Origin: Saprospiraceae bacterium
Lineage (GTDB): Bacteria; Bacteroidota; Bacteroidia; Chitinophagales; Saprospiraceae
NCBI GenBank assembly: GCA_020631355.1
Contig: JAHDHL010000022.1
Span: 1-64,000, forward strand
Direction of reading: 5' to 3'
Length of the DNA: 64,000 nucleotides
Of this stretch, positions 18,987 to 51,043 are shown in pieces; the first letter of the stretch is position 1; each line of letters starts with the position of its first letter. Made by a program: the position numbers and the translations under genes. Below the pieces are notes generated by a model. That model worked only from the letters and a program-made list of their open reading frames with translations, was not told the DNA's origin and made no database searches.

Positions 18987-19836
18987 ATTTCATAAATCTA
19001 AGATAACTCAATCCAATGAAAATTATAATAAAAACCGCACTTACAATCGTCGCATCCGTTGCAGGGAGATAATACGGTATTCCTACCTGGGTCTCATATT
19101 CCGTAGCCAATTGTACCAAGCCGGCATTAATCATCGGGGATGGTGTATAGACGGGTACCAGATTCTTCATGGCACTAATCGGCAAATACATCATTGGCAC
19201 ATATGTCAGCTTGAAATAATACAACATCATGCTCAGGAAAATGTATTCGATAATCGGATAGAACAAGTAGAATATCAGGGAAAGCGCGAAGCGTCTGAAT
19301 ACCCACCCGAAGAATACGGCCAAGGACATATATCCCATGATTTGCAGGGCATATTTGGGTATGATATCAGCATGCTGGGTCACTTTAGCCCAAACAATGT
19401 AATCCGTATTGAAATAACCGATAAGTAATCCCAATAACATGTAGTACAAGGCGAATCCGCAACTCACTGCAAATACGATGAGTATCTTACCTACGAAAAA
19501 TTCCCTACGGGTAAGACCATTGATGATGCTTTGGCGTAGGGTCTTATAGTCATATTCATTCGTGATGATTAGGATACCGATGAGACCGAGAAAATAATAG
19601 TTGAACCAATTCCCCAAATAACTCAGTGCTTTCCATATGTGCGGAAAGATATACGGATCTTCCAACAAGGTCGCCATGGCCGTGGCATTCATCCCTGAAG
19701 ATTCCCCATCCAGATTCGGTAGGAACTTTCCTAGGAAGAAAATGGATGGCAGAAAAACCACATATAGGATGGACATTACGATGAATGTCCTATTGGAAGT
19801 CAATTTTTTCCATTCCAGAATCAGTAGATGGAGCAT
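18976..19836 (-). CDS. ABC-2 type transporter permease
   Basis: A 286-residue membrane protein with about six helices. It has the typical ABC-2 loop NEYDYKTLRQSIINGLTRREFF after the second helix, a likely ATPase coupling helix, and an N-terminal amphipathic segment LLILEWKKLTSNRTF. ABC-2 permeases export drugs, lipids or other substrates with a separate ATPase. None is encoded next to it here, so its ATPase must lie elsewhere or it has become an orphan. Confidence 0.82.
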   Translation of the reverse strand: MLHLLILEWKKLTSNRTFIVMSILYVVFLPSIFFLGKFLPNLDGESSGMNATAMATLLEDPYIFPHIWKALSYLGNWFNYYFLGLIGILIITNEYDYKTLRQSIINGLTRREFFVGKILIVFAVSCGFALYYMLLGLLIGYFNTDYIVWAKVTQHADIIPKYALQIMGYMSLAVFFGWVFRRFALSLIFYLFYPIIEYIFLSMMLYYFKLTYVPMMYLPISAMKNLVPVYTPSPMINAGLVQLATEYETQVGIPYYLPATDATIVSAVFIIIFIGLSYLRFMKSDL

Positions 19837-19928
19837 ATTGGTTGATTTTTTCCCAATATAGCGATTATGGCAAAAGGGATGTAACTTGTACCTTTAGTAT
19901 TCGACTAATACATCCATTTGATAGAAAG

Positions 19929-22847
19929 ATGACCCTAATCAGGCAATATATCATAATCCTAACCATACTTACAGTAGCTTTTTCCTCTTGGGGACAAGAT
20001 GTCTGGGAACCCGTTTCTTTCGAATTCAATATCAAGGATGGCCTCCCCTCCAATACCGTCTATGATATCATACAGGACAGCAGGGGTTATATCTGGATAG
20101 GAACGGAAAATGGGATAGCAAAATTCGATGGAAGGGAATTCGAAACCCTGAACGACCAACATTTGGATGTAAATGAAATCAGCTATCTGTACGAAGTACC
20201 GGACGGCAGTATCTGGGCCGTTACGTTCGGGAATCGTATCATCAGGATTGAGAATGATTCCATACATATTGTAAAGGCATTCGAACCCTTTCACAATGAT
20301 CGGAAATATTTCTCAATGATACATCCTAGGGACTCTCTCCTATTCGTGAAATCCAAGGACAATCTGATCAAATATAATTTATTGACAGAGGATATTCATC
20401 CTATTCCCCACATTGTTAAACCTGGTTTCATCAATCATATTACACACAATCAGGATTCTGTTATCATCCTAGTTCATTCAAAAGGGGCAGATAAGAGAAA
20501 AAAAAGTATAATCCATACCTATGACATTGACTCTGGCACATTGGGAATTATTGATGTTAAACTCCCAGCTTTGGTAACTAATGTTTACCAACATCAAGAC
20601 CAAACGCTCTTGATGGGTATTAAAATGGGGATAAATATGATTCAGGATGGACAATCTGCCCTTTGGGATCGTATTCCTGAAATGGATGCCACAGATCGCC
20701 TGCTCAACCTCAGTGATATTGATGAGGATATTTGGGTCAATACCTTTAAGGGCAGCATTCGTTTGAGTGACCGTCAAAGAATACTCAGCAAAAAAACAAG
20801 TACCAAGGTCATAAAGGATTTCGAGGGTAGCCATTGGGTCAGTACATACAATTCAGGTATCTTTCACATTCCCAATTTCCATTTGGTACAACACAAGGAA
20901 TTCAGCCAAGCCATCAATAGAATCGTAAGTTCTGACCAATTCCTGTTCCTAGGCATGTCTGATGGCCAACTCGTCCATTACGACCCGACCCATGATAGTA
21001 TAGTCAAGCAACTAAACATGGAGAACTTCAAGGATATCAAGGATATGAATTACAATCCTCACCTACAGAGGATTTTCATTAATAACCGCCATACATTCCA
21101 ATATGATATCCGTGATAAGAAAATAAGTAAACTACCCCTGACTAGTAGTGCAACGCTGGGTCTATCCTCCAATCAAAATTTTCTACTGGACTTGAATAAT
21201 GTCGTAATCTTAGTTCATTTTTTCGATGAACCCGGCAATCCATCTTCCACAATAAGCGAAGAATGGAAAAAGAATATTTCTGAATCCTTCTCATTCAATA
21301 ACAAAGAAATCATTTATAACACCGAAAATATATTAGCGCATACTGACAATAATATCTGGTTTTTAATGAATGATAAGATTCTTGTTAAAAAAGAATTCGG
21401 ATTGGATTCCATTCTTTATCAAGGTAAAAATCTCATTGGTCTCGATGCATGTCAAATGTCAGATGATTCTGTAGTCATCAGTAACCATGATTACGGTCTG
21501 AGTTTCATTGTTGATTACAAGGCACACAAACCCATTCAAAATCCGGATATCAACAGATTTGGTAGGATAGATAAAATTAAATACAAGAATGATTATATCG
21601 TAGGTTTGACCCGATTCGGAATGCTAATCATGGATAGGAATGGCAAAATACTGAAGACCATTGACGAATCCGATGGTTTGGATGCTTCCATTGTTAATGA
21701 TTTCGCTATCTGGAATCATTATCTTTTCGCCGCTACGACCCAAGGTTTATACAAGATCGATCTCAAACTCTTTTCTGATAATGAGACGGCCAGTAAAACC
21801 TATATCAATGAAATCCGCATGAATGGGGAAGTCGTATCCGAATCCCATTCATTCAAAAATGGTTCGAATGTGGAAATTTCATTCAACCATACGGGTATGA
21901 AAGGCCGAAAGAATTCAAGGATACAATTCAGAATGAATGAAAATGAGGCATGGAAACCTGTTTCTAATAACTCTATCAATTTACCCAATCTCTCTCCCGG
22001 TTCGTACAATTTTCAAGTCAGAACCATCAATGAGGAAGGAATCATTGGGGAACCCACATCTTATGCATTCTACATTCGTCCTCCCATATGGCAGAGATGG
22101 TGGTTCATACTCGGTGCCTGTTTCCTATTGGCCTTGGTATTGTTCATTTTCTACAAGCGCAGGCTGAGTGCCATTGAAAAGGAGAACCAATATGAGCAAG
22201 AAATCCGCTCAAATAAGCTCTCTGCACTGCGATCTAGGATGAATCCCCATTTCATTTTTAATTCCCTGAATTCCATACAGGATTTCATCATTAAGATGGA
22301 TAAGCTGGGAGCCAATGAATACTTGGGTATCTTTTCGGATTTGATGAGGATTTACCTCCGCCACTCAGAACTGAATCGGGTAGAACTCCATGAGGAAATA
22401 GAAGCATTGGAACTGTATCTCAAATTAGAGGAACTCCGTTTTGGTGATATAGAAACCCATTTCCATATAGATCCAAAGTTGGAACAAATGGACTTGTTCA
22501 TTCCGCCATTGTTCATACAACCCTATATCGAGAATGCATTCAAACATGGATTGCTACATAAGAGAGAGGGAGATAAGAAACTGGAAATCATTTTCAGATA
22601 TCTTGAAAATGATAAAACCCTACTCATCGAAATTACGGATAATGGTATCGGGCAGGAAGAATCCCTTAGGATAAAGCAACGTTCGAATGTCAAAGGATTG
22701 TCATTCTCAACCAAGGCCAATCAGACCCGACTGGAACTACTCAACCATAACAGAATCCAGAAAATTAGTGTTGAGTTCACCGATTTGAATGAGAATGGAA
22801 AGGCATCCGGTACCAAAGTGACCATCCTTGTCCCGGATACAGTATGA
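19929..22847 (+). CDS. LytS-type sensor kinase with propeller input (first of tandem pair)
   Basis: A 972-residue hybrid membrane kinase. It begins with a signal peptide (MTLIRQYIIILTILTVAFSS), then two-component propeller repeats (first: DGLPSNTVYDIIQD, YIWIGTENGI), a Y_Y_Y domain before the membrane, one membrane span (WWFILGACFLLALVLFIFY), and a LytS-type kinase: phospho-acceptor His774 in MNPHFIFNSL, N-box ENAFKHGL, G-box ITDNGIGQE. The start at 19929 is chosen because the signal peptide begins there. Its stop overlaps the next kinase's start (ATGA), so the pair is translated together and likely reports to the LytTR regulator downstream. Confidence 0.92.
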   Translation: MTLIRQYIIILTILTVAFSSWGQDVWEPVSFEFNIKDGLPSNTVYDIIQDSRGYIWIGTENGIAKFDGREFETLNDQHLDVNEISYLYEVPDGSIWAVTFGNRIIRIENDSIHIVKAFEPFHNDRKYFSMIHPRDSLLFVKSKDNLIKYNLLTEDIHPIPHIVKPGFINHITHNQDSVIILVHSKGADKRKKSIIHTYDIDSGTLGIIDVKLPALVTNVYQHQDQTLLMGIKMGINMIQDGQSALWDRIPEMDATDRLLNLSDIDEDIWVNTFKGSIRLSDRQRILSKKTSTKVIKDFEGSHWVSTYNSGIFHIPNFHLVQHKEFSQAINRIVSSDQFLFLGMSDGQLVHYDPTHDSIVKQLNMENFKDIKDMNYNPHLQRIFINNRHTFQYDIRDKKISKLPLTSSATLGLSSNQNFLLDLNNVVILVHFFDEPGNPSSTISEEWKKNISESFSFNNKEIIYNTENILAHTDNNIWFLMNDKILVKKEFGLDSILYQGKNLIGLDACQMSDDSVVISNHDYGLSFIVDYKAHKPIQNPDINRFGRIDKIKYKNDYIVGLTRFGMLIMDRNGKILKTIDESDGLDASIVNDFAIWNHYLFAATTQGLYKIDLKLFSDNETASKTYINEIRMNGEVVSESHSFKNGSNVEISFNHTGMKGRKNSRIQFRMNENEAWKPVSNNSINLPNLSPGSYNFQVRTINEEGIIGEPTSYAFYIRPPIWQRWWFILGACFLLALVLFIFYKRRLSAIEKENQYEQEIRSNKLSALRSRMNPHFIFNSLNSIQDFIIKMDKLGANEYLGIFSDLMRIYLRHSELNRVELHEEIEALELYLKLEELRFGDIETHFHIDPKLEQMDLFIPPLFIQPYIENAFKHGLLHKREGDKKLEIIFRYLENDKTLLIEITDNGIGQEESLRIKQRSNVKGLSFSTKANQTRLELLNHNRIQKISVEFTDLNENGKASGTKVTILVPDTV

Positions 22848-25789
22848 AGAATCTGATTAGAAATATCATCTATCCCATTATTCTCCTAATCTGTGGTGTT
22901 TCATTGCTGCATTCACAAACAGACCCCTTGCACGTCCAATTCTCTACCGAGGATGGCCTCCCCTCCAATACGGTCTACGACATTATCCAAGACAAGAACG
23001 GATACATTTGGGCGGGAACAGAAAATGGTATTTGTAAATTCAATGGAAAGACATTCAAAACCCTGAATGATGACCATCTCATTAATAATGAAATCAGCTA
23101 TCTACACGAACTGAAAGATGGAAGCATATGGGCTGTCACCTTTGGTAACCAAGTGGTTAGAATCATTGATGACTCTATCCATGTCCTTGATATTTTCAAT
23201 CCTTATCTGAATGATTTCAAGTACTTTGAAATGGCACAGGCCAATGATAGTACCCTGATTGTGAAGAATAGCAATAGAATCCTATCCGTGAATCCTTTCA
23301 GGGTATCCGTCAAAGAACTATACGAGACCCAAATCATTAATGTCCGTAGTCGTGACCTTATCGTACCTTTCAGTACTGATGGGAATGAGATTTTCTATCA
23401 AATCATCAAAGGTCAGAAAGTAATCAATCTCCATTACCACCTCCTTACTGACAACATCAAAAAAGATACTTTCCTGAATCGTGAATATGGGTTTGACGGA
23501 GCATTCTTCAGTCACGGAAAAACCTTCAAATGGAATAATTCCCTGGTCCAAATATCAGATGACTCAACGAATGTGAAATACGATACCAATGATTGGTTTC
23601 CTAATGATAGGATACTCACTTGCAACGGTATCAGTGAGCATGAACACTGGATCAATACAACTGACGGGTCAATCAGATTACAGGATAAAAGACGTATCAT
23701 GAGTTCATATGGTACGACTAAGGTCATCAAGGACATGGAAGGAAATTATTGGGTATCTACCCATGAATTCGGTTTATTCCTAATTCCCAATATGGAAATT
23801 GGCATTTGGTTGGAAATGGATACGGAACTGGATCGTATCACACATATGAAAAATCATCTGTTCGTTTCAGACAATACCCAATTCCTCAAGTCCCTCCATG
23901 TAGAGCATCCGGAAGAACTACAATCATACCCTCTCAATTATCCCAATGTCAAATTCTTATTTTCAGATACCCTGAATGAAAGAATCATTGTTAATGATGG
24001 ATCCACGACCATGATAAGATATGAGGATGGTCAATTCAACAGCTTCTTACCTCCCAATATTAAATCCTGGTACAATGGACTAAGACTGGGGTATTTTTCT
24101 GATGACTCATTTATCCGAGTGTATAAGAGTAACATCTGTGTAGTGAGGAGTGATACCCTTACTTCGGATTATGACAGTTTACTGAATCATCATTGGAGTA
24201 GGGTCAAAACACAGTATTGCATTGAGTTTGGAGTACTTACCTCAGCTATAAAGGATGGATATTATGATTCGGTAAACAATACATTCTGGTTGGTATTGGC
24301 TAATCAAGTCCTAATAAGTGAATCAGATAGTATCAGGGAATTCAAGTACAATGACAAATCCATTCGTGGCAACCGGATAGAGAGTGACCCATCAGGGAAT
24401 GTGTATATATTCTTGGATGATGATGGTTTTCTGAAAATCAATAGGAACCACGAAATCCAGCAATACAAATCCACCCAACTCAAAACCCTGGGTACCATCA
24501 GAAAAGCCATCTATAGGGATAACCAAGTTTTTTGCCTGAGCAATCAGGGATTCCTCATATACAACCTCATCACCAATGAGCAGATTACCCTGGACCGTAC
24601 AGATGGTGTATTCGGTGCCAAAATCAATGATTTTGACATCATGGATGACCATGTCTTCCTCACTTTTCAGAACAAGCTCATCAAAGCGCATATCCCTAGT
24701 ATCAAGGATAACAAACATCCGCCCAAAACTTTCCTAAACCACCTCATCGTGAACGGAAAAATGCAGGCTATTCCCACATCATCCGTATCATTCCCTTACC
24801 AATCAGATATAGAGGTACAATTTGATGCGCCATCATTCAAAGGAGGCCAACACAGTAAGCATCTATACCGACTCAACGATTATACGACTTGGGTCGAGGT
24901 TTCCGGTAATACACAAAGCATACGGCAACTGAACCTATCAGCGGGTAGCTATAACTTCAGTATCAAAACCATTAATGAGGATGGCCTCGAGGGGCCCATT
25001 TCCTCATTTAATTTCAGTATCCAATCCCCTTTCTGGCTTAGGTGGTGGTTTATTCTGGGCATATTATCCATTATCGGGCTTTCCTTATTTGCCTACTATA
25101 GGAATACCATTAAAAGATTGGAAAAGGAAAATCAGCTCGAACAGGAAATTCGTTCCAATCAGTTATCTGCCCTACAATCCAGAATGAATCCCCATTTCAT
25201 TTTCAATGCCCTCAATTCCATACAGGATTTCATCATCCGAATGGATAAGGAAGGAGCCAATGAATATCTGGGTATCTTTTCGAATCTGATCAGAATCTAT
25301 CTCCGACATTCCGAACATCCTATGATAGAATTGCAGGAAGAGATAGAGGTATTGGAGTTATATCTCAAATTAGAACAATTGAGGTTCGAGGATATTGAAA
25401 TCGAAATCAACATAGATCCTAATCTCCGAAGATATGATATCATGATTCCTCCTCTTTTCATCCAACCCTATGTGGAAAATGCATTCAAGCATGGCCTGCT
25501 GCATAAGAAGCACAATAAAAAACTGAATATCAGTTTCAGCTTGGACAAATCCAACGAAATACTTGATATCAGGATAAATGATAATGGAATCGGTAGGAAA
25601 AGATGTCTGGAAATCAACAAGAAAACACCTCATTCGGGCCTATCCTATTCTACAAAGGCCAATAAAAGAAGGTTACAACTCATCAACCATAACAGAACTG
25701 ATAAAATCAGGGTTGAATTCCGTGATTTGTACCCTGACGAATATGACCAAGGGACAAGTGTTTCCATCCGTATCCCCATTATTATTTAA
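22844..25789 (+). CDS. LytS-type sensor kinase with propeller input (second of tandem pair)
   Basis: A 981-residue paralogue of the upstream kinase with the same order: signal peptide, propeller repeats (DGLPSNTVYDIIQD is identical), Y_Y_Y domain, membrane span (WWFILGILSIIGLSLFAYY), then LytS kinase with His784 in MNPHFIFNAL, N-box ENAFKHGL and G-box INDNGIGRK. The first 80 mature residues and the kinase parts are much alike, while the middle propeller blades differ. This implies duplication followed by change of ligand specificity, or a heterodimeric sensor. Starts with a 4-base overlap. Confidence 0.92.
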   Translation: MKNLIRNIIYPIILLICGVSLLHSQTDPLHVQFSTEDGLPSNTVYDIIQDKNGYIWAGTENGICKFNGKTFKTLNDDHLINNEISYLHELKDGSIWAVTFGNQVVRIIDDSIHVLDIFNPYLNDFKYFEMAQANDSTLIVKNSNRILSVNPFRVSVKELYETQIINVRSRDLIVPFSTDGNEIFYQIIKGQKVINLHYHLLTDNIKKDTFLNREYGFDGAFFSHGKTFKWNNSLVQISDDSTNVKYDTNDWFPNDRILTCNGISEHEHWINTTDGSIRLQDKRRIMSSYGTTKVIKDMEGNYWVSTHEFGLFLIPNMEIGIWLEMDTELDRITHMKNHLFVSDNTQFLKSLHVEHPEELQSYPLNYPNVKFLFSDTLNERIIVNDGSTTMIRYEDGQFNSFLPPNIKSWYNGLRLGYFSDDSFIRVYKSNICVVRSDTLTSDYDSLLNHHWSRVKTQYCIEFGVLTSAIKDGYYDSVNNTFWLVLANQVLISESDSIREFKYNDKSIRGNRIESDPSGNVYIFLDDDGFLKINRNHEIQQYKSTQLKTLGTIRKAIYRDNQVFCLSNQGFLIYNLITNEQITLDRTDGVFGAKINDFDIMDDHVFLTFQNKLIKAHIPSIKDNKHPPKTFLNHLIVNGKMQAIPTSSVSFPYQSDIEVQFDAPSFKGGQHSKHLYRLNDYTTWVEVSGNTQSIRQLNLSAGSYNFSIKTINEDGLEGPISSFNFSIQSPFWLRWWFILGILSIIGLSLFAYYRNTIKRLEKENQLEQEIRSNQLSALQSRMNPHFIFNALNSIQDFIIRMDKEGANEYLGIFSNLIRIYLRHSEHPMIELQEEIEVLELYLKLEQLRFEDIEIEINIDPNLRRYDIMIPPLFIQPYVENAFKHGLLHKKHNKKLNISFSLDKSNEILDIRINDNGIGRKRCLEINKKTPHSGLSYSTKANKRRLQLINHNRTDKIRVEFRDLYPDEYDQGTSVSIRIPIII

Positions 25790-38679: not shown

Positions 38680-38946
38680 ATGCATTTTGTCTATGCAATT
38701 TCTTCTACTATCAGAAACTACACCTACATAGGTCTTACATCTGATATTAAAAAGAGGCTTTTTCGCCATAATAATGGCAGAGAAAAAACTACTAGAAGTT
38801 ATGCACCATTCATTCTCATCTATTTTGAAGTACTTGAGGATAGAGAAAAAGCAAGAGTTAGAGAAAAGTATCTCAAAACAAGTCAAGGTAGACAATATTT
38901 AAAGGATTTACCATCCTCTAAAATGCCGATGTGGCGGAACTGGTAG
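38680..38946 (+). CDS. Small GIY-YIG nuclease-domain protein
   Basis: An 88-residue single-domain protein. GIY-YIG markers are FVYAISSTIRNYTYIGLTSD, the Arg in KKRLFRHN, and the catalytic-Glu region LEDREKARVREKYLKTSQG. This matches the UvrC-N/YhbQ-like GIY-YIG group of DNA endonucleases. The last seven residues (MPMWRNW) are encoded by the first 22 bases of the intact tRNA-Leu and the stop TAG lies in its D loop, so the reading frame invades the tRNA gene. A role in mobility or in maintaining the insertion is inferred. Confidence 0.87.
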   Translation: MHFVYAISSTIRNYTYIGLTSDIKKRLFRHNNGREKTTRSYAPFILIYFEVLEDREKARVREKYLKTSQGRQYLKDLPSSKMPMWRNW

Positions 38947-39008
38947 ACGCGCTGGATTCAAAATCCAGTTCCTGCAAGGGAGTGGGGGTTCGATTCCCCC
39001 CGTCGGTA
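38925..39008 (+). tRNA. tRNA-Leu (anticodon CAA)
   Basis: An 84-nt class II tRNA. Acceptor GCCGATG pairs with CGTCGGT (two G-U), discriminator A at 39008, anticodon stem CTGGA/TCCAG with loop TTCAAAA (anticodon CAA, codon UUG), a long variable arm TTCCTGCAAGGGAGT, and T arm GGGGG-TTCGATT-CCCCC. The 3' CCA is not encoded. A terminator follows immediately. Confidence 0.97.
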
Positions 39009-44888: not shown

Positions 44889-45473
44889 CTAATTGATACC
44901 CATACCTACTGTCACTCCCAAGCTCTCGATATTGTAATAATTGACCGGTTCGGCTGACAACTCAAAGGTCTTGTATAGATTCTGGAATGAATAGGTCAGT
45001 TCGAAATATGAAAGGATATTCTCTTTTACTTTCACCCTTACTCCTAATCCGGCCCTGAAGACGAATCCCCGCTCTGCCAAATCTCCCAAGTGGCTACCAA
45101 AGCTCAATTTGGCAAATAAAGTACTCTTATTCTCACTGGCGACTCCAATGAAATTGGCATACATGGGAAAATATTTTATTCTGGGATGACTGACGATTTC
45201 GTATCCTCCACCTATCCCTACTCCAAAATAAGGAATGAAATAATAATTCAGTTCCCCGTTGACTCCTGTTACAACGGTTCCCAACTTCAGGTTAAATTCC
45301 TCTCCATAATCCGCAGCATAACGATTATCATATGGTAATAATGTGAGGGCCTGCACCTTAGCTGCGAAGCCTCTACGGATAGGTTCATCATCATCCTTTT
45401 GTCCAAATACAAATACGGAATGTGTGACAACTATAAATAAGATCATCAGAAGACGATGGGGTTGTTGTATCAT
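44889..45473 (-). CDS. Outer-membrane beta-barrel protein
   Basis: A 194-residue protein with a signal peptide ending ...FVFGQ and about eight amphipathic beta strands with alternating aromatic residues (YFGVGIGGGYEIV, FRAGLGVRVKVKENI, YFELTYSFQNLY, SLGVTVGMGIN). It is a small porin-like or OmpA-type barrel without the OmpA C-terminal domain. Ligand unknown. It shares strand with the large T9SS protein but has its own upstream region. Confidence 0.78.
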   Translation of the reverse strand: MIQQPHRLLMILFIVVTHSVFVFGQKDDDEPIRRGFAAKVQALTLLPYDNRYAADYGEEFNLKLGTVVTGVNGELNYYFIPYFGVGIGGGYEIVSHPRIKYFPMYANFIGVASENKSTLFAKLSFGSHLGDLAERGFVFRAGLGVRVKVKENILSYFELTYSFQNLYKTFELSAEPVNYYNIESLGVTVGMGIN

Positions 45474-45634: not shown

Positions 45635-48283
45635 ATGAAATATTTCCTGATACTCCTCCTAACTTTCATTTGCGGCATATCCCATTCCCAAAACCTTACA
45701 TTCAACACACAATCGGCTCTCGACAATTACAATAGTAATACCTCTGTCGTAAATGGGAATCTTATCATCCACCAATCGACTGCAAGTTCTGATATCATCA
45801 ATGACATTACGGTCCTCTCAAATATCGATAGTGTATATGGCAACGTTAATATATTTGGTACGAATCTTCCGCATCTGAATAGCCTATCCGGTCTTCAATA
45901 CATTGGTGGGAATATATTGATATTGGATAATGATCTCCTAACGGACGTATCAGGAATGACCAGCCTTGATTATATCGGAATGGATTTATCCATATCCTCC
46001 TGTGATGCACTTCCTATTATTGAGGGATTCGACAATCTTACTTTTATCGGAGATGCCATGCTTGTCAGCAATAATCCCATGGTGACCGAAATCTCAGGTT
46101 TCAATTCACTCATTGAAGTAGTGAATTATCTTACAATTGCGAGTAATGACCTCCTTGACGAAATCAATGGTTTTGTGAATCTGGTCTCGGCAGGAAGTAT
46201 CTCATTCTCAAGCAATGAGGAACTGAGTATTGTCGATGGATTCGATAATGTCAACCATACCGGACTGAGTATTATCTATAACTATACCCTCGATACGATT
46301 CACGGATTTGAAAATCTGACCTATATTGACGGGCAATTGAGATTGAATAGCAATGCCTTTACAACCTATCCATTATTCAATCAACTAGATACCATTTCAG
46401 GTGACCTATGGCTCAGTTTCAGTAATAGCATCACCCATCTGAATGATTTCTCCAATCTGGAATACGTTGGAGGAGACCTTATCATACATGACAATCCCAA
46501 CCTGACTGACTGTTGTGGAATTCAGCACCTGATCCATCAGCCGAATGCTCTCGGAGGAGTTACGGATATTTATAACAACCCAACGGAATGCAGTTCAGCC
46601 AATGATATACTTTCTTCTGAAAACTGTCCATTACCTACCATTACCGGCCTACTCTATTGGGATGATAATGGAAATAAAATATATGATTCCGGAGAGTTAT
46701 TACTGGATGGAAGTGTATGGACAATACCAGAGCAACAAAATATTTACAGTAACAATGGACAATTCGAATTATTTCTGGATTCAGGGCAATACATACTGAG
46801 TTACGATACGATTCCTAATTGGGTACTCCATACGGATTCAACCGAATATCACTTATCCATTCAGGATTCATCGGTACTTGGGGGATATGATTTCGGATTC
46901 CATCCCAGTGATACTTTCGACATGATGGCAGCTAATATTGTTCCCGCCCTAGCTGTTTGTGATCAGTTGGTAGCGTTCAATTTCCTTTGGGAAAATACAG
47001 GTACAACCTTTTTGGATGGAACTGTTACGATAACATTGGATTCCATGATCCAAGGTGTTGATTTTGGTAATTCCACCCCTGATGTTTCCATCCATCCCTA
47101 TCAATTCCAATGGAATATCCAAGAGCTTCCACCTTTCCAAGGAGAACAGAAAACGATATACCTTCAAATTCCCGGCATTACGGAGGATTTTGGTTTGGGG
47201 GACTCCATCATGGTGAGTATGGATATCCAGTATGGTTCAGAATCGACAATAACGGATAGTACCACAGTGGATTGGGTATCACCGATACTCTGTGCATATG
47301 ACCCGAATGACAAGTTGGTATCGCCTGATAGAATCGAAGCCGGAAATCCCTTGTTTCCGGACGAACCCATAACCTATACCGTCCGATTCCAGAATACCGG
47401 CAACTATTTCGCAACCGATGTCATCATCAGGGATACATTATCCGAGTATCTGGATCTGACCGCTTTCAGATTATTAGGAAGTAGTCATCCCAATTCGCTT
47501 TCCATCTCATTTGAAAATGAACACATCATTGAATTTTCATTCATTGATATCATGCTACCGGATAGTACGATGGATTTTGAGGGAAGCCAGGGTTATGTGA
47601 GCTTTAGTATCCAACCTTATCCAGGTACCAATCCGAATACAATCATAGAAAATACAGCACATATCTATTTCGATTCGAATCCTGCCATCGTTACGAATAC
47701 GCCTATGCTGACTTATGTGGAAAGTTATGAACTACCCACCCTATTTTCACAAGGTTGTGATTCTGTCCTTTGGAATGGGGAATACCTTTATGAGCATTCA
47801 CTGGAATTAGATAGTACGGGTATCTACGGAGGATACTGGATAACACCCAATTTGATTGAGGTATACGAAAGTCAGGATACCAGTATTCTGGATACAATCC
47901 TCATTGGAGAAGAATATGTTCTTCCTGATGGTCAGATAGTGAGTATGGGGGGAACCTATACCAGTCTGTTCCAAACTTCGGAAGGATGTGATAGCATCAT
48001 CACAACCATACTGGAAGTTTCTACCAGTACGACTACGGCCAACACCTATTCCCCTGCATTGATTTATCCGAATCCTACCAAGAATCTGTTCCTTATCGAT
48101 ACCAAAAGCCAAGGGTTTGTGGATGAAGTAGTGATATACGATGCTTTGGCGAGGGTGCAATACCAGAATAAGGTCCAAGGTTCGTTACAAATCAATACGG
48201 AGAATTGGTCTACGGGTATATATCAGATAATATTACTCAAGGATGGCATTGTCCTACAACACGAACATCTGATCAGGTATTGA
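45635..48283 (+). CDS. T9SS protein with receptor-L-like repeats and conserved CAYDPNDK domain
   Basis: An 882-residue exported protein: signal peptide (MKYFLILLLTFICGISHS), leucine-rich receptor-L-type repeats (about 50-320; LSGLQYIGGNILILDND, GFDNLTFIGDAMLVSNN, FENLTYIDGQLRL), an SdrD-like beta domain (about 335-430, LLYWDDNGNKIYDSGE), a conserved Bacteroidota repeat with ILCAYDPNDKLVSP (about 550-690), and a T9SS sorting domain at the end (YPNPTKNLFLIDT). The function is adhesive or structural by inference. It converges on the tandem RNA locus, and its stop lies against that locus's terminator. Confidence 0.85.
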   Translation: MKYFLILLLTFICGISHSQNLTFNTQSALDNYNSNTSVVNGNLIIHQSTASSDIINDITVLSNIDSVYGNVNIFGTNLPHLNSLSGLQYIGGNILILDNDLLTDVSGMTSLDYIGMDLSISSCDALPIIEGFDNLTFIGDAMLVSNNPMVTEISGFNSLIEVVNYLTIASNDLLDEINGFVNLVSAGSISFSSNEELSIVDGFDNVNHTGLSIIYNYTLDTIHGFENLTYIDGQLRLNSNAFTTYPLFNQLDTISGDLWLSFSNSITHLNDFSNLEYVGGDLIIHDNPNLTDCCGIQHLIHQPNALGGVTDIYNNPTECSSANDILSSENCPLPTITGLLYWDDNGNKIYDSGELLLDGSVWTIPEQQNIYSNNGQFELFLDSGQYILSYDTIPNWVLHTDSTEYHLSIQDSSVLGGYDFGFHPSDTFDMMAANIVPALAVCDQLVAFNFLWENTGTTFLDGTVTITLDSMIQGVDFGNSTPDVSIHPYQFQWNIQELPPFQGEQKTIYLQIPGITEDFGLGDSIMVSMDIQYGSESTITDSTTVDWVSPILCAYDPNDKLVSPDRIEAGNPLFPDEPITYTVRFQNTGNYFATDVIIRDTLSEYLDLTAFRLLGSSHPNSLSISFENEHIIEFSFIDIMLPDSTMDFEGSQGYVSFSIQPYPGTNPNTIIENTAHIYFDSNPAIVTNTPMLTYVESYELPTLFSQGCDSVLWNGEYLYEHSLELDSTGIYGGYWITPNLIEVYESQDTSILDTILIGEEYVLPDGQIVSMGGTYTSLFQTSEGCDSIITTILEVSTSTTTANTYSPALIYPNPTKNLFLIDTKSQGFVDEVVIYDALARVQYQNKVQGSLQINTENWSTGIYQIILLKDGIVLQHEHLIRY

Positions 48284-48325
48284 TAAAAAATAAGGTCTAT
48301 GATATCTTATCACAGACCTTATTAT
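48284..48325 (-). terminator. Minus-strand terminator at the end of RNA unit A
   Basis: The stem AATAAGGTCT/AGACCTTATT (48289-48298/48314-48323) continues inward with ATGATA/TATCA. One A-C opposition in DNA becomes G-U in minus-strand RNA. The U-run (AAAAAA at 48284-48290 on the plus strand) follows only in the minus direction, so it stops transcripts coming from the RNA locus. Confidence 0.75.
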
Positions 48326-48330
48326 CACAT

Positions 48331-48399
48331 CAAAAACAAAAAACCAAGTCACCATCACAACAGACTGGATTTCAGCCTGACTAAGATGGTCCTCGGTTC
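48331..48399 (-). terminator. Terminator hairpin of RNA unit A
   Basis: The plus-strand arms 48341-48355 and 48386-48399 pair. On the minus strand the arm ends ACUUGGUUU and is followed by UUUGUUUUUG. Two A-C oppositions in DNA become G-U in the minus-strand RNA. Confidence 0.75.
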
Positions 48400-48819
48400 A
48401 TAGTTGCATCAGGAACCATACTTGGATTTCATTGAGATTATTTCGCATACGCACAAAATGGCATTCATCCAATGAAGAATGTGTCATTTTAAAAAAGCGA
48501 TGCTACAAAGTCATAATCCTCATATTGGAAAATTTAGTTTTTTCTCCACCAATCCCTTAGGATTGGTTCCCTAGTTATTGGGAACTATTTCGGTTATAAG
48601 AGTGTGTGTCTTATTCAAAACCCATATGACAAAGTAACATCTGAAGCAAGTAGAGTGGCTCATTGTGCGTAGGACAATTTACATCTTGAATGCTTAGCCA
48701 ACCCTTTGAGAGCTGCAATTTCTTTTGTTTCGTTTTGTTTCCTGCATCCTAGTAACAGGGATTCCATTTGTTTGCAGCCACCCTACCCGCTTCTCTGCCA
48801 TCACCTTTGTTTCAATGAC
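48341..48819 (-). ncRNA. Large structured RNA, unit A (candidate new family)
   Basis: Related to unit B by conserved blocks (for example plus-strand AATTTACATCTTGA at 48676-48689, GGGAACTATTTCGGTT at 48580-48595) and by a shared fold. Helices: long-range GTAGAGTGGCT/AGCCACCCTAC (48650-48660/48776-48786), GATGCTAC + GTCAT / ATGAC + GTAACATC (48499-48514/48626-48641), ACCAATCC/GGATTGGT (48548-48555/48560-48567), AAAATG..CATTC/GAATG..CATTTT (48455-48466/48477-48490). The few A-C mismatches become G-U on the minus strand, and the terminator hairpin has its U-run on that strand. No conserved reading frame. Ends from inferred promoter and terminator. Confidence 0.72.
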
Positions 48820-48823
48820 ATTG

Positions 48824-48861
48824 TAAAGCTAAGGCGATAGGTTAGTAAGACCATTTACAAA
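48824..48861 (-). promoter_or_regulatory. Promoter region of RNA unit A
   Basis: On the minus strand ATTTG (48862-48858), 26-bp spacer, TAGCTTTA (48831-48824), directly before the conserved GUCAUUGAAAC start. Unit B has the same elements at the same spacing. The spacer is longer than the standard 17-23, so the upstream element may be something other than a -33 box. Confidence 0.45.
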
Positions 48862-48864
48862 TAA

Positions 48865-48897
48865 ATTAATTATATCCAAAATTTGGGTATAATTAAT
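48865..48897. repeat. AT-rich inverted repeat upstream of RNA unit A
   Basis: ATTAATTATA (48865-48874) pairs with TATAATTAAT (48888-48897); CC/GG extend the stem after one unpaired position. It lies just beyond the upstream promoter element of unit A and has no counterpart upstream of unit B. Confidence 0.55.
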
Positions 48898-48974
48898 ATT
48901 ATTAAGTGCTGATTTACAATTTTTTATTTATTCTGAAATATCCAAAATATAAAACAACAGCTTCATTTTCCTAA

Positions 48975-49043
48975 AGAAAAAAATGAACCAAGTCACCATA
49001 CAACACTCTAACATTCGCCTAACAAAAATGGTACTTGGTTCAT
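48975..49043 (-). terminator. Terminator hairpin of RNA unit B
   Basis: The plus-strand arms 48983-48999 and 49028-49043 pair over 16 bp with one bulged base. On the minus strand the hairpin is followed by UUUUUUCUUU. A canonical intrinsic terminator facing unit A's upstream region. Confidence 0.85.
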
Positions 49044-49470
49044 CGTATCTTAATGGATCAGTCATATATCTTTTGGACATATTCTGCATACATGTATACA
49101 CGAAAGGGAATATCCATTGCTCGCAATGTGATATTCCAAAAAGTGATGTTACTCTATCATAATTCTCATGTCGGAATCCCTTAGTTTCTTTCCACCTGAC
49201 CTGTACGGGTCGGTCCCTAGTGACTGGGAACTATTTCGGTTCTTAGAATGTGTGTTTTGTTCATTAACCCATATGATAAAGTAACATCTGGAGTAAGTAG
49301 AGTGGCTCGGTGTGCGTATGATAATTTACATCTTGATTCAATTCTTTAAAATTTGCTCGCACCAGAGCGCTAAAATTTAATTGCTTTATTTTGTTTATTA
49401 GCTATTATGGCTTTCTTAGTTTACAGCCACTCTACATAACTCTTACGCCATTCCTGTTAGTTTCAATGAC
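48983..49470 (-). ncRNA. Large structured RNA, unit B (candidate new family)
   Basis: Tandem partner of unit A with the same fold, in more regular form: GTAGAGTGGCT/AGCCACTCTAC perfect over 11 bp (49297-49307/49425-49435); GATGTTAC + ATCAT / ATGAT + GTAACATC (49145-49160/49273-49288); ACC-GACC/GGTC-GGT with one bulge (49194-49201/49208-49214); TCCC/GGGA plus AGT/ACT (49214-49229); GGAATATC..ATTGC/GCAAT..GATATTCC (49107-49120/49123-49137). Every one of these is conserved in position with unit A while sequences differ. An extra hairpin AAATTT-GCTC/GAGC..AAATTT (49349-49378) is specific to B. Confidence 0.75.
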
Positions 49471-49474
49471 AATC

Positions 49475-49511
49475 CAAAGATATGGGCTAATCAAGTTTAA
49501 AACATTCACAA
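49475..49511 (-). promoter_or_regulatory. Promoter region of RNA unit B
   Basis: On the minus strand ATTTG (49512-49508 region), 26-bp spacer, TATCTTTG (49482-49475), a full TAnnTTTG match. The RNA would start about 49470 with GUCAUUGAAAC. Confidence 0.5.
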
Positions 49512-49600
49512 ATTCCAAAATAATATCCGTACTTTAGATACATATTTCATATCAAATACTTCATTATCAATTATTTATAAAAATTTAATATCCCATAATT

Positions 49601-51043
49601 TTGAAAAAAGCATCCTTATTACAAGAGTGGATTATTCATTTCAACACAAAAAAAGCATGGAGGCATGTATCCGAGTGTGCCCAGCTTTCCATACTGGGAG
49701 CCAGACCCATTACCAAAAGTATCATTACGGCGATATCCAAGCATACTTCCATCAGGCCCTCAATGGCAAAAGATAAAGATGTCCTGAGTAAACACCTTGG
49801 GATTGACATCTCAGAAAATGACTGGAAACGCCTACAGACCGAAATACCAAGGATTTGTTCATATGCAGTTAAAATCATGCAAATGGACGAAAACCCTATT
49901 CCCAGTGACCTGGAGCTCCAATATTATTACATGTCAAATGATATGGAGAAGCATCTCGACATGAGTAAGAAAAAGAATGAGAAGCAGATTATCCAAGCAC
50001 CAGTCGAACATCATTACTATGGCCTTTATCTTACCAGATTCAGGGAACTCGAACTGTTTGACAGGAGGAACAAGAATTACAGACAGGGGATGACCGACCT
50101 TAGCCAGTGGGAAGAAGCCATCAATATGTTCCATTATGAGAATAGGTTACGAGTATTGACTGAAATAGCCAATAGGTCCGGTTTTAGCGGCAATAATCAG
50201 ATGACAACAGAGCATCAACAATGGCAAGCATCCATTCCGAGGCAATATATCGAACAACATCCACAAGTCAGGTATTACCATTTGGTTTATGGCATGATCT
50301 CTAATGAATCGGAGCATAATTTCATGCAGTTGCTTCAGGAATTGAAAAAGCAGGATTATAGCAAAATCACTATCTCCTATTCACATGTTCTTTATCAGTA
50401 TCTCTCCGCTTTCTGTAGTAGGATGATTGGGAAAGGACATCACAAATACCATCAGTACTATGTGCAGGTCAATCAATTGATGATGGAAAAGGGATTATTA
50501 TTGGAAATGGGATATATCCCACCCTACAAATTGGAAAACATTACCAAGTCCGCACTGGAATCAGGAGACTTGGACTGGGCAGAGGAATTCTTCCAAACCC
50601 ATAAAATCAAATTAGCAAAACCAGTGGATAACCGATTGGTGACCTTTTGTAATGCCCTGATACAGTTCTATAGCAAGCAATACCAAAAAGCCAATGCTAT
50701 CCTATCCACACTTCCGCACATCAAGGATGACCTGAGTCAGATGAGTTCTCATTATATGCTTTTATTGACCTATATCATTCTTGGAGATGATGATGAAGCG
50801 GAAAGATTACATTCCAATCTTAAGACAATGGTCTACAGGAAAAAGGATAGCATATCCCCTACTTACTTCGAACACCTGAAAACCGGACTATCATATGCCT
50901 TGAGAATCATGTATCCCAAGGATTATAATTTCAGGAAACATTATGAGTCCCTACTTGAAGAACTGAAAGCCGAGGACAACTTCAAGGATAAGAATTGGCT
51001 CGTTATGACTTTGGAAAAAAAGTTGGGGAAGCATATTGCCTAA
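49601..51043 (+). CDS. Helical-repeat protein of unknown function next to the RNA locus
   Basis: A 480-residue cytoplasmic protein without signal peptide or membrane segment. The start is a TTG (MKKASLLQEWIIHF); no better ATG exists near. The C-terminal two thirds are pairs of amphipathic helices (LALESGDLDWAEEFF-like, VTFCNALIQFYSKQYQKANAI, MLLLTYIILGDDDEAERLH) typical of TPR-like repeats. The N-terminal 100 residues have a helical segment (DISENDWKRLQTEIPRICSY) of unknown type. It resembles lineage-specific repeat proteins of saprospira-like bacteria. It is divergent from RNA unit B, about 130 bp away. Confidence 0.55.
   Translation: MKKASLLQEWIIHFNTKKAWRHVSECAQLSILGARPITKSIITAISKHTSIRPSMAKDKDVLSKHLGIDISENDWKRLQTEIPRICSYAVKIMQMDENPIPSDLELQYYYMSNDMEKHLDMSKKKNEKQIIQAPVEHHYYGLYLTRFRELELFDRRNKNYRQGMTDLSQWEEAINMFHYENRLRVLTEIANRSGFSGNNQMTTEHQQWQASIPRQYIEQHPQVRYYHLVYGMISNESEHNFMQLLQELKKQDYSKITISYSHVLYQYLSAFCSRMIGKGHHKYHQYYVQVNQLMMEKGLLLEMGYIPPYKLENITKSALESGDLDWAEEFFQTHKIKLAKPVDNRLVTFCNALIQFYSKQYQKANAILSTLPHIKDDLSQMSSHYMLLLTYIILGDDDEAERLHSNLKTMVYRKKDSISPTYFEHLKTGLSYALRIMYPKDYNFRKHYESLLEELKAEDNFKDKNWLVMTLEKKLGKHIA

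Follow-up and report, generated by a model that had tools for sequence, protein, structure and literature searches.

The window analysed here, a stretch of 64,000 nucleotides from a Saprospiraceae bacterium, contains a region of 1317 nt without an open reading frame (ORF) of at least 60 aa. The region lies between a surface-protein gene at 45635-48283 on the plus strand, assigned to DUF7619 by Pfam, and the gene of a 480-aa protein termed P480. Most of it is occupied by two homologous units in tandem, A and B (48341-49470; Table 1). Two homologous gene-free units of about 480 nt had been proposed here by the original prediction, and this is what we find: over the best 350-360 nt, A is 73% identical to 48986-49336 and B is 72% identical to 48333-48689, and no ORF of at least 60 aa was found inside either unit. 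Across full-length aligned positions the identity is 65-69%, varying with the alignment setting, and it is patchy, each full block of 50 columns containing 19 to 44 identical ones. Every reading frame is closed, with between 6 and 13 stops in each frame of each unit; the longest stop-free run, of 81 codons, lies in B. The presence of tandem homologous structured units is confirmed.

Table 1. Features of units A and B and of their surroundings, in window coordinates
Feature	Position	Strand	Description
Unit A	48340..48818	-	putative structured RNA of ~480 nt, ends predicted; homology with B; fold z -5.05, or -5.75 with slightly different ends
Unit B	48984..49469	-	putative structured RNA of ~485 nt, ends predicted; homology with A; fold z -4.57, or -4.03 with slightly different ends
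A P1 domain	48644..48792	-	11-bp helix 48786-48776/48660-48650; z -3.65 minus, -1.30 plus
A P1 4-bp extension	48792-48789/48647-48644	-	interior of the P1 domain variable
B P1 domain	49291..49442	-	helix 49435-49425/49307-49297; z -3.00 minus, -3.40 plus
B P1 4-bp extension	49442-49439/49294-49291	-	
A core domain	48499..48641	-	junction of P5, P6, P7 and P7b, closed by P3 (8 bp) and P4 (5 bp)
B core domain	49145..49288	-	P3, P4, P5, P6, P7 and P7b; own minimum-energy fold
A P8 hairpin	48455..48490	-	AAAATG..CATTTT, inner CATTC/GAATG
B P8 hairpin	49107..49137	-	GGAATATC..GATATTCC, inner CATTGC/GCAATG
A P9 terminal helix	48342..48398	-	p about 0.001 minus, 0.03 plus
B P9 terminal helix	48986..49040	-	p about 0.011 minus, 0.001 plus
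A P2 (tentative)	48671-48663 with 48456-48448 (span 48448..48671)	-	9 bp; would cross P1 (pseudoknot)
-7-like box before B	49475..49482 (minus 49482-49475)	-	TATCTTTG; placed relative to the unit as in A
-7-like box before A	48824..48831 (minus 48831-48824)	-	TAGCTTTA
Terminator-like hairpin	48289..48323	-	T-run on the minus side only; just beyond A, right after the DUF7619 gene
P480	49601..51043	+	divergent neighbour of 480 aa from a many-copy family; possible partner

Both units fold on the minus strand beyond dinucleotide shuffles with either choice of ends (Table 1). The corresponding plus-strand values are z -2.09 for A and -3.92 for B, and in B the single-strand folds barely separate the strands (-4.03 minus versus -3.92 plus). 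The spacer between the units folds more weakly than they do (z -1.95 minus, -2.43 plus), and the stretch upstream of B gives -0.62 and 0.56. A two-sequence consensus fold, scored against column shuffles under four alignment settings, yields z of -4.98, -7.13, -4.87 and -5.35 on the minus strand and -2.79, -1.96, -2.83 and -3.69 on the plus strand. With RIBOSUM scoring the values are -2.6 and -1.2, respectively, and the best of the 100 shuffles folded at least as well as the minus strand; default scoring was adopted after this run because, with two sequences, the RIBOSUM covariation term swamps the energy. The predicted structure of A and B is well supported.

The core domains, folded alone (A 48642-48498, B 49289-49144, about 145 nt), both give the P3/P4 stem together with P5, P6, P7 and P7b; the two folds differ in the sizes of P6 and P7b and in the interior of P5. 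The own minimum-energy fold of the A core has z -5.36 minus and -3.80 plus, and the B core, which contains a 17-nt inverted repeat of 94% (I1), has -3.49 and -3.40. The other parts of B fold about as well or better on the plus strand (plus versus minus: P1, -3.40 and -3.00; P8, -4.30 and -3.96; P9, -5.42 and -3.19). Compared alone with minus-strand shuffles, P7 reaches p of about 0.002 in A and 0.178 in B (not significant), and P8 reaches about 0.067 in A (not significant) and 0.004 in B. The tentative helix P2, and with it a pseudoknot with P1, is weak, since in B six of its eight pairs are formed and two are broken. The conserved stretches AACCGAAATAG, ACACACA and CAAGATGTAAATT are mostly unpaired in the placed helices.

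The original prediction rested largely on helices whose bases differ between the units yet stay paired. Three of the four helices are present as described, namely GTCAT/ATGAC in A with ATCAT/ATGAT in B, the re-sequenced hairpin AAAATG..CATTC with its B counterpart, and the 11-bp long-range helix; the fourth was taken up with a different B arm, GGTCAGGT with a bulged A in place of GGTC-GGT. Twelve hand-placed helices offer 69 comparable pairs, of which 56 are unchanged, four have one-sided and nine two-sided changes, and none is broken; seven further pairs exist in a single unit only. The double changes fall in P1a (2), P4 (1), P7 (2), P8a (3) and P8b (1), and the P1 of A differs from that of B by two double changes and one one-sided change. 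This count is not a test, because the helices were picked as pairing in both units. The absence of broken pairs is partly a matter of choice as well: P6 was counted with its three inner pairs, one outer P6 pair being broken in B, and P2 stands outside the total of 69.

A hand-free test, in which the minimum-energy and centroid pairs of A from single-sequence folds were mapped on B and the reverse, showed no excess of retained pairs over chance on either strand, with identical results under three MAFFT settings. For the minimum-energy pairs on the minus strand, 20 of 59 and 16 of 60 pairs are changed yet canonical (null 22.3 and 19.9), with 6 and 3 double changes (null 7.2 and 5.7). Misplacement of P7 and P8 by MAFFT and wrong pairs in the full-length minimum-energy folds may account for this result, an argument made after the fact. 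The predicted paired-yet-changed helices are therefore favourable as placed by hand but not above chance in the hand-free test, and we regard the covariation between A and B, which comes from two sequences, as moderate.

Several features bear on the strand. The A-C oppositions at 48654/48782, 48503/48637 and 48346/48394 all become U-G or G-U on the minus strand, as had been stated, and in the hand-placed helices read on this strand A has four G-U and no A-C oppositions and B has neither. The predicted terminal hairpins with U-runs are also found, both units ending in a long inverted repeat that is followed by a minus-strand U-run: P9 of A runs into 48343-48332, with one G inside, and P9 of B is separated by 2 nt from 48983-48977. 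A simple terminator scan did not list these end hairpins, probably through its loop limit of 3-8 nt; it gave one minus-strand site, 48323-48289 just beyond A, and two on the plus strand, 48564-48587 inside A and 49224-49246 inside B. The hairpin just beyond A (16-bp inverted repeat I2) may provide a second stop for read-through from A rather than the end of the DUF7619 gene. Leaving aside ORFs antisense to 45635-48283, the first minus-strand ORF found downstream of A is 44889-45473, so neither RNA leads into a gene.

At the opposite end of the units, the predicted TAnnTTT(G/A) boxes both exist, TATCTTTG before B and TAGCTTTA before A, in equivalent positions immediately ahead of the conserved start TGTCATTGAAAC. 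We take TATCTTTG to be a Bacteroidota-like -7 box. Each box is preceded by a TTTG 26 nt upstream; the usual spacing of TTTG and -7 box in Bacteroidota promoters is shorter, and the -33 spacing misfits the consensus. Boxes of this type occur in the window at about 0.48 per kb per strand. A sigma-70-type scan, which does not cover Bacteroidota promoters, reported ten sites on the plus and four on the minus strand. Taken as a whole, the minus-strand assignment is moderately supported by unit A, the consensus fold, the G-U pairs and the U-runs, which make the predicted strand the more likely one, although B folds about equally on the plus strand. A and B are very probably structured RNAs read from the minus strand.

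No known family was recognised. Over the whole window, Rfam 15 at gathering scores matched only a tRNA (38925-39008), the sole tRNA of the window, some 9 kb from the units. At E up to 10, the interval 48200-49650 gave no credible match; the best one, to the Bacteroides sRNA BTnc201 (RF04177; E 1.7), scored 19.6 bits, far below the gathering score of 105, and is attributed to chance. This agrees with the earlier statement that landmarks of tmRNA, RNase P, SRP, 6S and group II introns are lacking. For the units, tmRNA was found neither by ARAGORN nor by Rfam, and RNase P RNA and group I and group II introns had no Rfam match. The GOLLD, ROOL and OLE families are included in Rfam, and their covariance models gave no match in the Rfam 15 search.

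In the host genome (6.16 Mb) no further copy was found; apart from A and B there are three matches of 17-30 nt (E 0.23-0.8). A core covariance model (R1) was built from the two sequences, so that distant relatives could escape it, and was run on six overlapping sets of 199, 396, 395, 398, 38 and 385 genomes, own included, reaching up to phylum level and scored with stricter filters for sets above 40 genomes; it found no credible relative outside the host. Its two weak matches (E 0.062 and 0.07) overlap protein-coding frames, one over about half its length (L052) and the other wholly (L053), and were taken as chance. In DNA searches, B gave one extra match in 60 genomes (own included), 22 nt long, AT-rich and judged chance (L007), and the interval 47900-50500 gave in nine genomes of the genus one AT-rich match (58 nt, 81%, E 2e-4; L019) that falls upstream of B, lacks a core match and was rejected. 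In the eight other genomes of the genus, 72-100% complete, the searches gave only these two short AT-rich matches. Blastn of phage and plasmid records gave short weak matches (12 and 3 records, E 0.09 to 0.3), taken as chance. One narrow pattern matched once in genome-collection contigs, in Lapidilactobacillus, six others matched 0, 1, 5, 7, 2 and 72 stretches of viral contigs, and R1 scored nothing above 19.3 bits over those 88 pattern loci (7 + 81).

The covariance-model search proposed with the original prediction thus yielded, as far as genomes up to phylum level were searched, no homologues with covariation outside the host. The lack of relatives shows restriction or fast change rather than absent structure. 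Of the claim of a new RNA family, a structured pair without an Rfam match stands, but it consists of just two paralogues in one genome. The titles and abstract beginnings of the open-licence papers listed, which deal with unrelated ecology or with RNA discovery in general, mention no such RNA in these bacteria.

The neighbouring genes suggest a possible context. A search with P480 gave 16 matches in this genome, counting P480 itself, and matched 46 of 60 genomes, its own among them. A map of 33 stretches, the window plus 32 loci, with ORFs called by a simple greedy rule and counts made by hand, shows 32 flagged P480 genes. A protein ORF is divergent to P480 in 25 of the 32 cases and absent in four (the window, L051, L065 and L069); the slot is not visible for three genes at stretch ends (L055, L061 and L070). 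P480 and the divergent ORF look like a two-gene module, with no clear family match. In L042, L045, L048, L049, L057 and L074 the divergent ORF encodes a surface protein flagged as DUF7619. The 33 stretches contain eight flagged DUF7619 proteins, and the five given to Pfam (that of the window and four others) were all confirmed; among the papers listed none contains the term DUF7619. For P480 itself Pfam gave one match below cut-off, DUF4646, NCBIfam and PADLOC gave nothing for the window protein, and an AlphaFold prediction made without an alignment is all-helical with a mean pLDDT of 43 and not interpretable. The window also encodes Por_Secre_tail proteins (Pfam), which point to Bacteroidota, and has at 19785-25789 on the plus strand a pair of neighbouring histidine-kinase genes, each encoding about 1000 aa with two-component regulator propellers, that overlap by 4 nt. 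Beside a P480 paralogue of the same genome (L040, 4480-4810, plus strand), an apparent structured leader of about 300 nt (z -2.09) combines a long-range helix with a strong terminator-like hairpin close upstream of a gene; it is unrelated to A and B by R1 and blastn, and a search of 39 other genomes at E 0.01 gave nothing.

Such a setting raises the possibility that the RNAs regulate the local P480/DUF7619 module, either in cis, through divergent transcription or read-through in antisense, or in trans by acting on paralogues. RNA B occupies in the window the slot where a protein ORF sits at most P480 genes, and A ends head-on to the DUF7619 gene. However, A stops about 57 nt short of that gene, with the minus-strand terminator-like hairpin 48323-48289 between them, and the nearest P480 relative (L051) lies in a tight gene row without a comparable gap. 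R1 found nothing above 16.8 bits in 32 stretches with or near P480 genes (L040, L049, L051 and 29 others), and blastn over 12 of these stretches plus 19 shorter loci yielded a single match, 30 nt long (E 0.085). The link to the P480 genes is suggestive at best, and we consider local regulation unlikely, while giving it more weight than the three explanations that follow.

Their being seen in one genome only, and not in the searches of the eight other genomes of the genus, would fit a decayed or active selfish RNA (an intron, a retroelement RNA or a transposon guide RNA) copied in tandem. This origin is improbable given that no reverse transcriptase (a sign of retrons or DGRs), transposase or Cas protein appears among the 29 ORFs, of 50 in the window, that were run against Pfam, that the genome holds two copies only apart from the three short weak matches, that the Rfam intron families do not match, and that the neighbours resemble ordinary chromosomal genes. 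Slightly less probable still is a functional plus strand, on which A and B would form a duplicated long structured 5' leader of P480. B starts about 130 nt before P480 on that strand, inverted repeats fold on both strands, the plus strand equalling or surpassing the minus strand in the P1, core, P8 and P9 segments of B, and the two plus-strand terminator-like sites would also agree; against it, the consensus fold is weaker on the plus strand in all four alignments, the G-U pairs of the hand-placed helices of A form only on the minus strand, and the U-runs follow P9 there. That a functionless intergenic stretch was duplicated and folds by chance is very unlikely: this reading is compatible with two copies in one genome, no homologues found and the null hand-free covariation, but A and B both fold beyond shuffles, and their patchy identity is expected under uneven constraint.

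We favour, at close to an even chance, two paralogous free-standing noncoding RNAs with a scaffold role in trans. That A and B are free-standing rather than a gene leader is likely; a scaffold or ribonucleoprotein function is a tentative proposal that we hold to be somewhat doubtful. Each RNA, of about 480 nt, would be transcribed from the minus strand by its own promoter and end at an intrinsic-terminator-like helix. Its computed core would be a long P3/P4 stem closing a junction with the four hairpins P5, P6, P7 and P7b. Next to it would lie the long-range P1 domain with its variable interior, and the re-sequenced hairpin P8 and P9, the helix at the 3' end, would complete the fold. The conserved unpaired AACCGAAATAG, ACACACA and CAAGATGTAAATT could make tertiary or protein contacts. 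We speculate, as the weakest step, that the folded RNA acts in trans as a scaffold alone, as oligomers or with protein, like OLE, GOLLD and ROOL. It is far less probable that the two diverged paralogues, which share the core junction but not the outer hairpins, are produced together and join into a two-subunit RNA complex; they would then be a new class of ornate RNA, restricted to a lineage, and a natural assembly of two different RNA subunits.

The pair appears to represent real-looking, apparently lineage-restricted structured RNAs, known from one genome so far. Diverged copies in one genome reveal which parts stay constant without recourse to other species, and their tandem arrangement makes deletion tests simple. 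If the family is real, it shows that standalone RNAs can emerge or survive in very narrow lineages, which would escape comparative screens.

Among known RNAs, tmRNA and RNase P RNA resemble A and B in size range and in the possible pseudoknot, and group I and group II introns in size and multi-domain fold. The negative ARAGORN and Rfam results set tmRNA apart, and the negative Rfam result RNase P RNA and the introns. According to one report (PMC12286853), OLE, GOLLD and ROOL are, as A and B would be, large structured noncoding bacterial RNAs with branched folds, and their functions are described there as poorly understood. One ROOL example has 659 nt and many GOLLDs exceed 800 nt; both families sit in phages and prophages, often near tRNA islands (PMC12286853). 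Compared with GOLLD and ROOL as described there, A and B are shorter, at about 480 nt, are surrounded by ordinary-looking chromosomal genes and lie about 9 kb from a tRNA. Unlike all three, they are two diverged tandem copies in one genome without an Rfam match. A and B belong beside the other large standalone RNAs as a kind and would be new as a family, so far one of a single genome.
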